NCBI GenBank assembly: GCA_905618885.1
Contig: CAJQTC010000011.1
Coordinates: 1-46,019, forward strand
DNA length: 46,019 bases
DNA from: an uncultured Pelagibacteraceae bacterium
GTDB lineage: Bacteria; Pseudomonadota; Alphaproteobacteria; Pelagibacterales; Pelagibacteraceae
Direction of reading: 5' to 3'
Position 1 is the stretch's first letter; every line of letters begins with the position of its first letter. The notes below the pieces were generated by a model that was not told the DNA's origin, made no database searches, and was given only the letters and a program-made list of their open reading frames with translations. The translations under genes were made by a program, and so were the position numbers. Shown piece by piece: positions 2,802 through 34,205 of the stretch.

Positions 2802-3880
2802 ATATATTAGAAAATTTTAAAGATTTATTCTTAGATGTTTGGAAAGACGGAGTGTCTGGAATAAACATTTCAGAAATAATAATAGCTTTAGCAATTTTTA
2901 CTTTCTTCCTTTTTCTGAGAGGGGTATTTTCAAAATTTGTTGTTAAAAAATTAGAGAAGTATGTTTCTAAATCAACTAATGGTTTCGATAACTCTCTCGT
3001 GTATTCAATGGAAGGGCCCGCAAAATTTTTCCCAATCGTACTGGGATTTTTTATTTCAACAAGCTATTTAACTGTGGAAAGTGGTATCGTCGATGTAATT
3101 AATAGATCTTTAATTACTATATTGATTTTTTGGACTTTTCATCAAGTTATCGAACCATTTTCTGCAGTTGTTAAATTAGCAGGAGGTCTACTGTCCAGAG
3201 ATTTAATTAATTGGATTATTAAAGCAATAAAGGTATTAATTTTAGTCTTAGGATTTGCTGCTGTATTAGATCTCTGGGGAATAAAAATTGGCCCAATTAT
3301 CGCTGGACTAGGTTTATTCGGTGTGGCTGTCGCTTTAGGAGCTCAAGATTTGTTTAAAAATTTAATTTCTGGCATATTGGTACTAGTTGAAAGAAGGTTT
3401 CAAGTTGGTGACTGGATTTTTGTGGAAGGAGTAATTGAGGGAACGGTAGAAAATATTGGCTTCAGATCTACTGTGGTGAGAAGATTTGATAAATCTTTGG
3501 CAACAATTCCAAATTTTCAATTTGCAGAAAGAGCTGTAATTAATAATTCACAAATCACGAATAGAAGAATTAATTGGATAATTGGAGTCGAATATCGAAC
3601 CACGGGTGAACAGCTAAAAAATATTAAAGATCAAATAGAAAATTACATAAGAGGTAACAAAGATTTTGCTGTAAATGATAATGCAATCTTATCTGTTAAG
3701 ATCGATCAATTTGCTGCTAGTTCAATCGACATAAAGTTAATATGCTTTACTAAAACTAAGCAGTACCAGGAGTGGATGAACGTTAAGGACACTCTTGCCT
3801 TAGAAGTGAAAAATATTGTCGAAAAAAACAAAGTTTCTTTTGCTTTTCCGAGTACTTCAATTTACGTAGAAAAAAATTAA
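2798..3880 (+). CDS. MscS-family small-conductance mechanosensitive channel
   Basis: Likely inner-membrane channel that opens on hypo-osmotic stress. The 360-residue protein has an N-terminal hydrophobic helix (about residues 24-46), further hydrophobic helices near 75-115 and 138-160, and then the MscS pore-lining helix GLFGVAVALGAQDLFKN, with its Gly/Ala-rich TM3, followed by the beta-domain sequence GDWIFVEGVIEGTVENIGFRST. The C-terminal cytoplasmic domain is short. It lies in the hem operon (ATGA overlap with hemD; its TAATG overlaps the yggT start), so it is probably cotranscribed without a functional link to haem. MscS family membership is clear; ion or osmolyte preference is not visible. 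Confidence 0.92.
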   Translation: MNILENFKDLFLDVWKDGVSGINISEIIIALAIFTFFLFLRGVFSKFVVKKLEKYVSKSTNGFDNSLVYSMEGPAKFFPIVLGFFISTSYLTVESGIVDVINRSLITILIFWTFHQVIEPFSAVVKLAGGLLSRDLINWIIKAIKVLILVLGFAAVLDLWGIKIGPIIAGLGLFGVAVALGAQDLFKNLISGILVLVERRFQVGDWIFVEGVIEGTVENIGFRSTVVRRFDKSLATIPNFQFAERAVINNSQITNRRINWIIGVEYRTTGEQLKNIKDQIENYIRGNKDFAVNDNAILSVKIDQFAASSIDIKLICFTKTKQYQEWMNVKDTLALEVKNIVEKNKVSFAFPSTSIYVEKN

Positions 3881-4170
3881 TGAATTCTATAATTATTTTA
3901 CTTAATGATATTGTTAGACTCTACATTTGGGTTTTAGTTATTAATGCAGCAGCAAGTTGGTTAGTAGCTTTTAATATTATTAACACAAGTAATCGTTTTG
4001 TTTACTCAGTTCTAGAAATTTCACACAAATTAACTAACCCACCGCTAAAGATTATTCGAAGCTTTATGCCAAATCTGGGCACGGTAGATATTTCACCAAT
4101 AGTGCTTATTTTAGCTTTAGTCTTTTTAAGAAATTTTATTAATGAAATATTTTATAAAGTTGCACTTTAA
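3880..4170 (+). CDS. YggT family membrane protein
   Basis: A 96-residue membrane protein with two hydrophobic segments (about 3-25 and 65-90) joined by a loop carrying the YggT signature SHKLTNPPLKIIRSFMPNLGTVDISPIVL. YggT-family proteins are linked to cell-shape or envelope stress and to ion tolerance, but the molecular role is unsettled. The start overlaps the previous stop by one base (TAATG) and folD follows after 2 nt, so it is translated as part of the hem-folD operon. Confidence 0.9.
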   Translation: MNSIIILLNDIVRLYIWVLVINAAASWLVAFNIINTSNRFVYSVLEISHKLTNPPLKIIRSFMPNLGTVDISPIVLILALVFLRNFINEIFYKVAL

Positions 4171-30653: not shown

Positions 30654-31484
30654 TTAAATTTCAAGTTTAATTTTTTTAATATCTGAAACTGGACCCGTCA
30701 TAGAAATATTTAGGTTCTCATCTATTTTTATATTTAAACTTCCCTCATTAAATTTAATATCGACACTGTTTTCAGTCAGTTTTTTGATTGATGACGCAAC
30801 AGCTGTGGCACAAGCAGCTGTTCCGCATGCTTTTGTTAATCCAGCACCACGTTCCCAAACATTTACCGTGATATTATTTTTATCATTTACTTGTGCAAAT
30901 GTAACATTAATTTTTTCGGGAAATAGTTTGTGATTTTCAATTTTTGGCCCTAATATTTTAAGGTCATATTCAAAGCAATCTTTGACAAAAAAAATTATAT
31001 GAGGATTTCCCACATTAAGGCAAAATCCATCAGTAAATATTTTATCATTAATATTTAAAGTTATATTATCGTGATCTAATTTTTTTATTAATGGAATTTT
31101 TTCCCAATCAAATACAGGTTTCCCCATTTCAAGCTGTACATCAGAATCTCCAAAAATTTTTGCGTCAAGGAATCTATTACTTGTTTTTAATTTAATTGTT
31201 TTCGTGTTTAAATCTTTACTCAAAAAGTAAGCCACACATCTACTTCCATTGCCACACGCACTTACTTCACTTCCGTCTGAATTAAAAATAGTGACTGGAT
31301 AAGCTTTATTAATTTCTTCTTCAATAAAAATTATTTGATCAAATCCAATATTACGATGAAAAGATGTCCGATTGCCCAGATTGATTATTTCTTGTTTGGA
31401 TATATTTATTGACTTTATCCTTCTATCAACAATAATAAATTTGTTGCCTAAACCATCCATTTTAAAAGCATTAATCACTGGCAT
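30654..31484 (-). CDS. dapF: Diaminopimelate epimerase
   Basis: DapF converts LL- to meso-diaminopimelate for lysine and peptidoglycan. The 276-aa protein has the two catalytic cysteines in SACGNGSRCVAYF and KACGTAACATAVA, and FNSDGSEVSACGN. The N-terminal motif reads KMDGLGNKF, where most DapF have GLGNDF; the change is outside the catalytic pair and is probably tolerated. It is cotranscribed with ftsY, one base apart. The pairing of dapF with ftsY is common in alphaproteobacteria. Confidence 0.95.
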   Translation of the reverse strand: MPVINAFKMDGLGNKFIIVDRRIKSINISKQEIINLGNRTSFHRNIGFDQIIFIEEEINKAYPVTIFNSDGSEVSACGNGSRCVAYFLSKDLNTKTIKLKTSNRFLDAKIFGDSDVQLEMGKPVFDWEKIPLIKKLDHDNITLNINDKIFTDGFCLNVGNPHIIFFVKDCFEYDLKILGPKIENHKLFPEKINVTFAQVNDKNNITVNVWERGAGLTKACGTAACATAVASSIKKLTENSVDIKFNEGSLNIKIDENLNISMTGPVSDIKKIKLEI

Positions 31485-31509
31485 AATATTAGATTAGTAT
31501 AATTATTCG

Positions 31510-31538
31510 TTGACTTTTAAAACCCCAAATTGTAGCTT
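31510..31538 (+). promoter_or_regulatory. Weak candidate promoter for the ffh leader RNA
   Basis: TTGACT at 31510-31515 is a good -35. With a 17-bp spacer the -10 is TAGCTT at 31533-31538, only three of six matches. A start near 31545 would fit the first hairpin of the leader. Confidence 0.35.
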
Positions 31539-31544
31539 CATCCA

Positions 31545-31640
31545 CTTTCCGCAAATACATATGTTTTTGCGGTGCTCTTAGAAATAAGAGGATCGACACT
31601 AGTCAGCGAAGGTTCGCCCACTAGTGAGCTTGGCGTTGTG
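31545..31640 (+). ncRNA. Structured 5' leader of ffh (ffh motif)
   Basis: Three hairpins follow each other in a GC-richer stretch directly before ffh. H1: CCGCAAA (31549-31555) with TTTGCGG (31566-31572). H2: CTCTTA, GAAA tetraloop, TAAGAG (31575-31590), fully paired. H3: CACTAG (31597-31602) with CTAGTG (31621-31626), enclosing a TCA/CCA internal loop and the GCGAA-GG-TTCGC inner stem (31606-31617). A cis-regulatory RNA candidate upstream of the SRP protein gene was reported from Pelagibacter (Meyer and colleagues, 2009, as I recall); position and style agree. It lacks the GGAAGCAGC-type loop of SRP RNA. It ends about 10 nt before the ffh start, so it could control translation. Confidence 0.8.
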
Positions 31641-31650
31641 TGATTATAAA

Positions 31651-33015
31651 ATGTTTGAAAACCTAACAAATAAATTAGAGACTATATTTTCTAAGCTTAA
31701 AAAATCTCCCTCTTTAAATGAAGAGCAGGTTGATGCAGGCTTAAAGGAAATACGTTTAGCTTTATTGGAAGCTGATGTAGCACTTTCTGTTGCTAAAGAA
31801 TTTATTGAAAAAATTAGACCAAAAGCAATTGGACAAGAGATACTAAGATCAATCTCTCCAGGGCAAATGATAATTAAAATAGTTTATGATGAATTAGTAA
31901 ATTTTCTAGGAGGAGAAAATCAAAAACTTAATTTTAACTCTACACCCCCAGCATGTATTCTTTTAGTAGGCTTACAAGGATCAGGAAAAACAACTAGTGC
32001 AGCCAAACTAGCAAAGCTAGTAGCAAAAAATTATAATAAAAAAGTTTTATTAGTTAGCTTAGATATTTACCGACCAGCTGCACAAGAACAATTAAAAGTT
32101 TTAGCCGAAGCAAATGAAATAAATCATTTACCAGTAATTAATGGACAACAACCTATAGATATTACAAAACGTGCATTAAATGCAGCAACACTTAATGGTT
32201 CGGATGTGATTATTTTTGATACTGCTGGACGTACTCAAGTAGATCTCATGATGATGAATGAAATCAAACAAATCAAGGCACTTGTTAAGCCTACTGAAAC
32301 TATTTTAGTTGCAGACTCATTGACCGGTCAAATCGCAGCTAATGTTGCAAAAGAATTTGATAATGCCGTTGATGTTTCAAGCATTATTCTTACTAGAGTA
32401 GATGGTGATGGCCGTGGTGGAGCTGCTCTAAGCATGAAGCACATTACAAATAAGCCAATTAAATATATTGGTGTTGGTGAGAAAATTGATGACTTAGAAT
32501 TATTTTATCCAGAAAGGATAGCAAACCGAATTCTTGGAATGGGAGATGTTGTTTCTCTTGTTGAAAAAGCTTCTGAAGGCCTAGATGAAGAAAAGATAAA
32601 AAAAGCAGAAGAACAATTTAAAAAAGGTTTATTTACGTTAGATGATTATCTATCCCAAATTAGACAAATGAAAAAAATGGGAGGCATGGAAGGAGTTATG
32701 TCTCTTTTACCGGGAGTTAATAAAATTAAAGAACAAATGAAAAATGCTTCTATAGACGAAAAAATTATTATTAAAAATGAAGCTATTATTCTTTCAATGA
32801 CAAAAAAAGAAAGAGAAGACCCAAAAGTAATTAACGGCTCAAGAAAAAAGAGAATAGCTATTGGAGCTGGCGCTGATGTTTCAACAATAAATAAGCTATT
32901 GAAACAGTTTAAAATGATGACAGAAATGATGAAAAAGATGTCAAAAGGCAAAACAAACCCAGGATCATCCGGTGTTATCCCGGATGAATTATTAAATCAA
33001 TTAAAACTAAAATGA
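31651..33015 (+). CDS. ffh: Signal recognition particle protein Ffh
   Basis: The SRP GTPase that binds signal sequences and SRP RNA. The 454-aa protein has the N domain, the G domain with GLQGSGKTTSAAKLA, DIYRPAAQEQL, DTAGRTQVD and TRVDGDGRGGAALS, and the methionine-rich M domain (KKMGGMEGVMSLLPG, and MMTEMMKKM near the end). The start is ATG 31651; an in-frame GTG at 31624 lies in the third leader hairpin and would add nine unconserved residues. There is no SD between the leader RNA and the ATG. It heads ffh-rpsP-trmD-rplS. Confidence 0.97.
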   Translation: MFENLTNKLETIFSKLKKSPSLNEEQVDAGLKEIRLALLEADVALSVAKEFIEKIRPKAIGQEILRSISPGQMIIKIVYDELVNFLGGENQKLNFNSTPPACILLVGLQGSGKTTSAAKLAKLVAKNYNKKVLLVSLDIYRPAAQEQLKVLAEANEINHLPVINGQQPIDITKRALNAATLNGSDVIIFDTAGRTQVDLMMMNEIKQIKALVKPTETILVADSLTGQIAANVAKEFDNAVDVSSIILTRVDGDGRGGAALSMKHITNKPIKYIGVGEKIDDLELFYPERIANRILGMGDVVSLVEKASEGLDEEKIKKAEEQFKKGLFTLDDYLSQIRQMKKMGGMEGVMSLLPGVNKIKEQMKNASIDEKIIIKNEAIILSMTKKEREDPKVINGSRKKRIAIGAGADVSTINKLLKQFKMMTEMMKKMSKGKTNPGSSGVIPDELLNQLKLK

Positions 33016-33025
33016 AAGGAAGCCA

Positions 33026-33484
33026 ATGCTAAAAATAAGACTATCAATGGGTGGTGTTAGAAAAAGACCCATTTATAAAATCGTGATCGCAGACAGTAGA
33101 GCCCCAAGAGATGGAAGATTTATAGAAAAAATAGGATCTTTTAATCCTCTCTTACCAAAAGATAAAAAAGAGAGAATTTCTGTAGAAGCTGAAAGAGTTA
33201 AATATTGGATGAGCAAAGGAGCAAAACCAACATTGAGAGTCTCAAGAATTTTAGGTGAAGCTCAAATCATGCCAATGCCTAAAGCAGGAAACAATCCTTT
33301 AAAAGCTGTTCCTAAAAAAGACAGAAAAAAGAGTGATGATAAAGAAGCTCCTAAAACTGAAGCTGCTAAAACTGAAGCTCCTAAAACTGAAGCTGCTAAA
33401 ACTGAAGCTCCTAAAACTGAAGCTCCTAAAACTGAAGCTCCTAAAACCGAAGCTCCTAAAACTGAAGCTCCTAAAAAGGACTAA
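33026..33484 (+). CDS. rpsP: 30S ribosomal protein S16 with repetitive C-terminal tail
   Basis: S16 stabilises 16S rRNA folding in the 30S body. Residues 1 to about 85 are the normal core (MLKIRLSMGGVRKRPIYKIV, DSRAPRDGRFIEKIGSFNP). The 152-residue total is almost double the usual size because of a C-terminal tail: a lysine-rich linker, then eight APKTE/AAKTE pentapeptides and a final APKKD. Alphaproteobacterial S16 often has a charged Ala/Lys tail, but this one is a pure tandem repeat. A strong SD (AAAGGAAG, 33015-33022) precedes the ATG. The next gene is trmD; rimM, usually in between, is absent. Confidence 0.97.
   Translation: MLKIRLSMGGVRKRPIYKIVIADSRAPRDGRFIEKIGSFNPLLPKDKKERISVEAERVKYWMSKGAKPTLRVSRILGEAQIMPMPKAGNNPLKAVPKKDRKKSDDKEAPKTEAAKTEAPKTEAAKTEAPKTEAPKTEAPKTEAPKTEAPKKD
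33347..33481 (+). repeat. 15-bp coding minisatellite in rpsP
   Basis: Nine 15-bp units based on GCTCCTAAAACTGAA: units 2 and 4 change Pro to Ala (GCTGCT), unit 7 has one silent T-to-C change, and the last unit ends AAGGAC. The near-identical units suggest recent slippage or recombination. A second frame through the repeat is also free of stops. Confidence 0.95.
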
Positions 33485-33503
33485 AAAATTAGAAGTAATA
33501 AAA

Positions 33504-34205
33504 ATGTTAGATGTTAGAATTTTTACTCTTTATCCGGAACTATTTCCGGGCCCATTAGACATTGGTCTTTATAAGAAAGCGAGGAGTAAAAAAATTTGGT
33601 CTTTAGAAATAATAAACATTAGAGATTATTCGAAAGATAAACATAAAACAGTTGATGACACTCCGTATGGAGGTGGAAATGGAATGTTAATGAGAGCGGA
33701 TACTATTAGCGATTCTTTGGACAAAATAATCGGTAAAAAAAAAAAAGAAAAAATTATTTATTTATCACCAAAAGGTAAACAGTTTAATCAAGCACACGCG
33801 AAGAAATTTAGTAAATTAAAAAACTTAAACATTATTTGTGGACATTTTGAGGGAATAGATCAAAGAGTTTTAGAAACGCAAAATATTGAAGAAGTAAGCT
33901 TAGGAGATTATATTTTATCAGGTGGAGAAACAGCTTCATTTGTTTTTCTTGATGCTATCATCCGTTTATTGCCTGGCGTTTTAGGGAATAAACTTTCAAT
34001 TCGAGAAGAAAGTTTTGAAAACAATTTGTTGGAGTATCCACAATATACAAAACCTCAAGAATGGAAAAAAAAAGTACCCCCAAAAGTGCTTTTATCGGGA
34101 GATCACGCTAAAATTAAGGGGTGGCGTTTAGCTCAATCTGAGGCTATAACACGTCGCCTAAGACCAGATTTATGGCAAAAATACATTACTAGAAATAAAA
34201 AATGA
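33504..34205 (+). CDS. trmD: tRNA (guanine-N1-)-methyltransferase TrmD
   Basis: TrmD makes m1G37, preventing +1 frameshifting on proline, leucine and arginine tRNAs. The 233-aa protein has [18 protein letters not shown] at the start, [14 protein letters not shown], the knot-forming [10 protein letters not shown] and [11 protein letters not shown], all diagnostic SPOUT/TrmD motifs. I choose ATG 33504; the frame stays open upstream to 33333 through the rpsP repeat, but those residues (LKLLKLK repeats) are an artefact of the repeat. A run of 12 A (33735-33746) codes for a Lys tract in the protein. It overlaps rplS by 4 nt. Confidence 0.96.

Follow-up and report, generated by a model that had tools for sequence, protein, structure and literature searches.

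The alphaproteobacterial ffh motif as a conserved structured leader that probably controls the ffh-rpsP-trmD-rplS operon

The ffh motif and its copy in a Pelagibacteraceae genome

In ribosomal protein leaders, a protein in excess lowers the expression of its own transcript, and the L19 leader of Firmicutes is one example of a ribosomal protein operon leader. The core hairpin of the ffh motif (Rfam family RF01793) has been in print since 2009, and in the available excerpts of Meyer et al. 2009 (PMC2704228) it is described as a single bulged hairpin unlike the portion of 4.5S RNA that Ffh binds, its transcript is reported from small-RNA metatranscriptomes and its function is left open. RF01793 is further listed on a plasmid of M. 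huakuii in an excerpt of PMC5596092. Plasmid copies were considered and set aside, as the two records inspected out of seven matching ones (Rhizobium sp. NLR16a p3 and S. meliloti pSymB) both carry the order dapF, element and ffh-rpsP.

The copy described here lies in a 46,019-nucleotide stretch of contig CAJQTC010000011.1 (assembly GCA_905618885.1, an uncultured Pelagibacteraceae bacterium), which is referred to as the window. The single Rfam match at gathering thresholds across the window is RF01793 at 31582-31634, with a score of 42.7 bits (the gathering score is 35) and an alignment spanning model positions 1-52 of 52. Besides the score, the window copy shows the covarying hairpin with two conserved loop cytosines and the place before ffh that characterize this family. 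The preliminary description had recognized a Pelagibacter ffh element from the letters and proposed a covariance search and an alignment of homologous gaps; the search returned RF01793 and the alignment revealed covariation in 60 SAR11 leaders. Because RF01793 matches and the leader covaries, that identification survives, and the leader is a real, already named element whose P2 hairpin is the core of the ffh motif.

Three hairpins precede ffh on the forward strand, as had been described; they can be read in the letters and covary in SAR11. P0 (31549-31572) pairs CCGCAAA with UUUGCGG and is kept in SAR11, and P1 (31575-31590) closes the GAAA tetraloop with CUCUUA and UAAGAG; both fall outside RF01793, since this model pairs P2 only. 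P1 can be extended by an alternative outer stem (31570-31595), in which CGGU at 31570-31573 pairs with AUCG at 31592-31595 and the CGG is common to the 3' arm of P0. P2 (31597-31626) consists of 7 bp, a C.C mismatch (31604/31619), an A.C apposition, 4 bp and the loop AGGU. It is followed by an unpaired tail and spacer to ffh (31627-31650), with position 31640 inside the tail, so that the last helix ends 24 nt before the ATG at 31651 and not about 10 nt before it as first estimated. Tail positions 9-12 (G, U, U and G) are kept in SAR11 and, by column counts, mostly also in OCS116/PS1.

Downstream on the same strand follow ffh (31651-33015; TIGR00959, 578 bits), rpsP encoding S16 (33026-33484; TIGR00002, 92.6 bits), trmD (33489-34205; named and its start chosen by eye from the list of open reading frames) and rplS encoding L19 (34202-34687; TIGR01024, 152.5 bits), with dapF as the divergent neighbour on the reverse strand (30654-31484; TIGR00652, 235.6 bits). 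A GTG at 31624 in the same list is unlikely as the ffh start, as it falls within P2 and the TIGR00959 alignment begins at residue 2 of the protein starting at ATG 31651. No SD-like word precedes this ATG, in agreement with the preliminary description; such a word is present in 14 of 88 SAR11 leaders and absent from 74. Scanning 31400-31700 gave no terminator-like site, and the promoter scan gave one site, the same as in shuffled sequences. The window S16 carries a long repetitive C-terminal tail of KTEAP repeats (33325-33481), and the S16 of an OCS116/PS1 locus (L181) carries one of EVAPAPA repeats (3722-3930). Many SAR11 contigs break off about 1.6-1.8 kb from the element, close to this repetitive tail.

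Covariation of the hairpins

Thermodynamic support for the fold is modest, and it is comparison that decides. The folding energy of 31545-31640 has a z of -2.94 (1 of 200 shuffles as good), that of 31530-31665 a z of -1.91, and P2 taken singly (31590-31640) a z of -0.55. For SAR11, an alignment A1 was built from the window and 59 of 77 distinct leaders; three loci at contig edges or with N (L015, L165 and L173) were left out of the SAR11 list, and one row (L086) was also dropped. Across P0, P1 and P2, 95.3% of the 1500 cells of A1 are paired, compared with 88.4% in shuffles and 36-46% in slid versions. Both sides changed in 10 of 25 pairs, a count reached by 14 of 500 shuffles, and the covariation score of 0.252 was reached by none of 500 (0.114 in shuffles, at most 0.091 in slid versions). 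Further pair types were no more frequent than in shuffles, 309 of 500 being as high.

The signal is strongest in P1, with 99.2% of cells paired and both-side changes in all six pairs, while P0 is paired in 98.1% of cells with both-side changes in two of seven pairs, and P2 shows such changes in two of twelve. By this comparison the hairpins are under selection as RNA structure. P1 together with its outer stem is likewise paired at 99.2% in SAR11; the outer stem and P0, which compete for the same bases, are both kept. The base common to the two helices changes with both of its partners (A1 columns 30, 51 and 77, corresponding to window positions 31551, 31570 and 31595): the combination is G-C-G in 46 of the 60 rows, A-U-A in 13 and another in one. 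These three positions vary together as though one base must fit both P0 and the outer stem, although a single ancestral change may account for this.

Across Alphaproteobacteria, alignment A2 comprises 70 sequences (the window, 9 SAR11, 11 OCS116/PS1 and 49 others) and uses 60 of 98 distinct non-SAR11 leaders; its pair counts cover P2 and not P1, because MAFFT misaligns the P1 arm. Both sides changed in 10 of the 12 P2 pairs of A2. The mismatch is nearly invariant, being C.C in 188 of 190 rows and U.C in 2, and, once a later set was included, C.C in 125 of 129 distinct helices with U.C in 4. The position beside it is most often A.C (135 of the 190 rows), with a standard pair in 38 (C-G 22, G-U 7, U-A 6, G-C 2 and A-U 1), A.A in 14 and other appositions in 3. 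Of 168 distinct leaders, 152 bear a perfect hairpin of 5 bp or more upstream of P2, versus 76.6 in shuffles, and outside SAR11 82 of 98 do, versus 39.3; at a threshold of at least 4 bp the counts (165 versus 140 by chance) are nearly equal.

Linkage to one operon and persistence in OCS116/PS1

RF01793 matched 169 of 197 SAR11-family genomes and 106 of 385 genomes in a sample of the alphaproteobacterial class. Model R1, built from A2, raised the latter count to 238 of 385, a figure that is not independent for the seed genomes because most R1 seeds come from the same sample. As for the 28 SAR11-family genomes without an RF01793 match, 20 were searched with Ffh and in none was the 5' end of ffh found, the only clear pieces covering residues 92-454 (G028) and 399-454 (G092); since the assemblies lack the ffh 5' end, these 20 misses do not count as losses. 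One genome (G203) bears two copies of the element (contigs C63 and C595); its assembly is 7% contaminated and is probably two mixed genomes.

Comparison ties the element to one operon. The gene next to it is ffh in 173 of 180 first loci, and of the other seven, four read straight into rpsP, two show by eye an Ffh-like N-terminus at a contig edge, and one could not be assigned. The 57 R1 places fetched from genomes outside the 106 are all directly upstream of ffh, with rpsP within the fetched stretch in 54. The 71 named R1 matches outside OCS116/PS1 stand 10-423 nt before ffh, which is the next gene in 71 of 71 with a readable start. Conversely, R1 matched at 76 of 80 named rpsP loci, missing L213 and L251 (both at contig edges), L224 and L231. 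An S16 linkage sample of 80 element-bearing genomes (79 of 97 class matches outside SAR11 and OCS116/PS1, together with the genome of the window) held the S16 gene in 78, and in 77 of these it lies downstream on the same strand, 1.4-5.1 kb from the element; the exception (G367) has its element at the edge of another contig than S16. The longest distances, 3.4-5.1 kb, occur in four genomes of one family (f23: G218, G349, G446 and G524), where extra DNA separates ffh and rpsP and the element remains before ffh.

This linkage to one operon also bears on the idea of a separate trans-acting small RNA, which accords with the Rfam type "sRNA" and with the transcript seen in small-RNA metatranscriptomes by Meyer et al. 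(PMC2704228, as excerpted). An element tied to a single operon, with no terminator-like site in 31400-31700, makes such an RNA highly improbable.

The spacing of the element speaks to its mode of action. The distance from P2 to the start of ffh is 21-31 nt in 88 SAR11 leaders and 17-292 nt in 85 others, and start-codon masking is therefore not a general mechanism. The same variability outside SAR11 weighs against a ligand-free leader, whose hairpins would shield the 5' end of the mRNA or aid ribosome loading on messages often without SD. A leader of this kind fits the scarcity of SD-like words in the window and SAR11 and needs no partner, so that the loss of Ffh would be harmless to it, but the near-invariant C.C mismatch and the conserved tail letters suggest a bound partner, and we regard the ligand-free reading as unlikely.

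Position alone cannot separate an ffh element from an rpsP-operon element, because ffh precedes rpsP nearly throughout: it is upstream in 74 of the 80 named rpsP loci, the other six being five OCS116/PS1 loci and one with too little upstream sequence. OCS116/PS1 can separate them. The four element loci leading straight into rpsP all belong to one family (f50), the sole family of its order, with nearest S16 neighbours labelled OCS116 cluster and PS1 clade. The analysis covered 18 genomes of this order, G245 among them (loci L181-L203). RF01793 was found in 14 of the 18 and not in the remaining 4. The gene directly following the element is rpsP at each of the 14 loci, with dapF on the other side in 13; dapF was not found at L192. 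At L181, the element, rpsP, rimM, trmD, rplS and leuC share one orientation, dapF and mtaB (named by eye) have the opposite one, and ffh is missing.

The SRP54 GTPase domain shared by Ffh and FtsY was found above cut-off in none of the 18 genomes, one piece of 20.5 bits in G579 falling below it, and the Ffh M domain and SRP RNA likewise went undetected in all 18. In 14 control genomes, the same searches found SRP54 in 14, the M domain in 14 and SRP RNA in 11. Only six of the 18 assemblies reach 90% completeness or more with no more than 5% contamination; each of these is without SRP54, M domain and SRP RNA, and five of them have the element. This marine lineage, which the search for the element brought out as one without detected SRP protein, receptor or SRP RNA, appears from its genomes to have lost the whole SRP pathway, and no title among the open papers searched concerned such a loss. 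P2 nevertheless persists there as a structure: among 12 distinct rows, two pairs changed on both sides, and none of 500 shuffles equals the fraction of paired cells or the covariation score, although 215 of 500 reach the count of such pairs. Since OCS116/PS1 keeps the element before rpsP, the element can act on the (ffh-)rpsP-(rimM-)trmD-rplS operon in the absence of Ffh, an independence that comparison establishes in this one lineage.

These results bear directly on the model offered in the preliminary description, autoregulation by Ffh binding to its own leader. In a fuller form of this model, free Ffh would repress ffh, and the element would have been repurposed in OCS116/PS1 after the loss of Ffh. 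The constancy of ffh as the next gene at the first loci, the 57 additional places and the 71 named matches speaks for it. Against it stand the compensatory changes in OCS116/PS1, where Ffh, FtsY and SRP RNA all went undetected, and the lack of likeness to SRP RNA: with a cut-off as loose as E<=10, 31500-31700 gave no SRP RNA family match, and the GAAA loop lies in P1, outside the Rfam core, and varies within SAR11 (AAAA, AAAU and UUAG also occur). Autoregulation by Ffh is accordingly judged quite improbable. An Ffh-binding mimic of SRP RNA finds no support either: there is no family match, and such a mimic would need Ffh in the genome, whereas 14 of the 18 OCS116/PS1 genomes have the element and neither SRP54 above cut-off nor the M domain turned up in any of the 18. 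An SRP RNA of the window genome, sought for comparison with the leader, was not found in that assembly, which is 57% complete.

A candidate feedback leader among known systems

The leader is probably a control element of the ribosomal operon and not a sensor of SRP, a preference that follows from the SRP-less lineage keeping the element before rpsP. At somewhat below even odds (roughly 0.45), the element would be the structured 5' leader of ffh-rpsP-(rimM)-trmD-rplS, to which a protein of the operon binds and feeds back, S16 being the first candidate. The operon-encoded protein would recognize the P1-P2 region, namely the C.C mismatch helix and the tail, and its excess would lower expression of its own transcript. 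More tentatively, competition between P0 and the outer P1 stem for the CGG could switch the SAR11 leader between two states. In its available excerpt, the 2024 review PMC10931766 states that information on how the trmD operon is regulated is lacking.

S16 is favoured for its gene position, as rpsP heads the operon when ffh is absent and lies downstream of the element in nearly all cases tested, which makes S16 the best but unproved candidate ligand. RimM cannot be the general ligand, because the window has no rimM between rpsP and trmD (33484-33489), whereas L181 does. L19, TrmD or a protein from outside the operon might bind in place of S16, given that trmD and rplS belong to the same operon in the window and at L181, but S16 is nearest once ffh is gone, a matter of position and not proof, and such a ligand is considered very unlikely. 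S16 is a secondary binder of 16S rRNA, a less usual kind of regulator, which counts against it. The feedback model is also weakened by element-rpsP distances of up to 5.1 kb, by the 4 of 18 OCS116/PS1 genomes without an RF01793 match and by the failure to find a convincing rRNA likeness: R1 scored nothing above 4.2 bits against E. coli rRNA, and scanning E. coli 16S and 23S for C.C helices yielded numerous items of the kind expected by chance, with one match of 8 letters near 23S position 579 set aside. A broader claim, that the ffh motif is unrelated to SRP and throughout Alphaproteobacteria binds S16 to give feedback on the trmD operon, with the competing SAR11 5' hairpin forming a two-state switch, would be doubtful on the present comparisons.

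With helix 8 of SRP RNA (Bacteria_small_SRP, RF00169) the element shares a helix interrupted by a small internal loop and capped by a short loop, and the 5' strand CA in SAR11. It differs from it in giving no family match at E<=10 and in being retained where SRP RNA was not found, and the partner strand and tetraloop of the helix 8 consensus differ from P2. Its resemblance to ribosomal protein operon leaders is that of a conserved structured 5' leader heading an operon with ribosomal protein genes; unlike those leaders, it has a ligand and feedback that are candidates only, and Rfam gives no ribosomal leader match at the window site. The closest relation is to the ffh motif itself (RF01793, PMC2704228), as P2 matches the full model above the gathering score, before ffh and in the same clade. 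The leader described here differs from that motif in the pairing of P0 and P1, which RF01793 leaves unpaired, in the published bulge, which is better read as one C.C mismatch beside A.C or a standard pair, and in its wider range with model R1, including its place before rpsP in OCS116/PS1.
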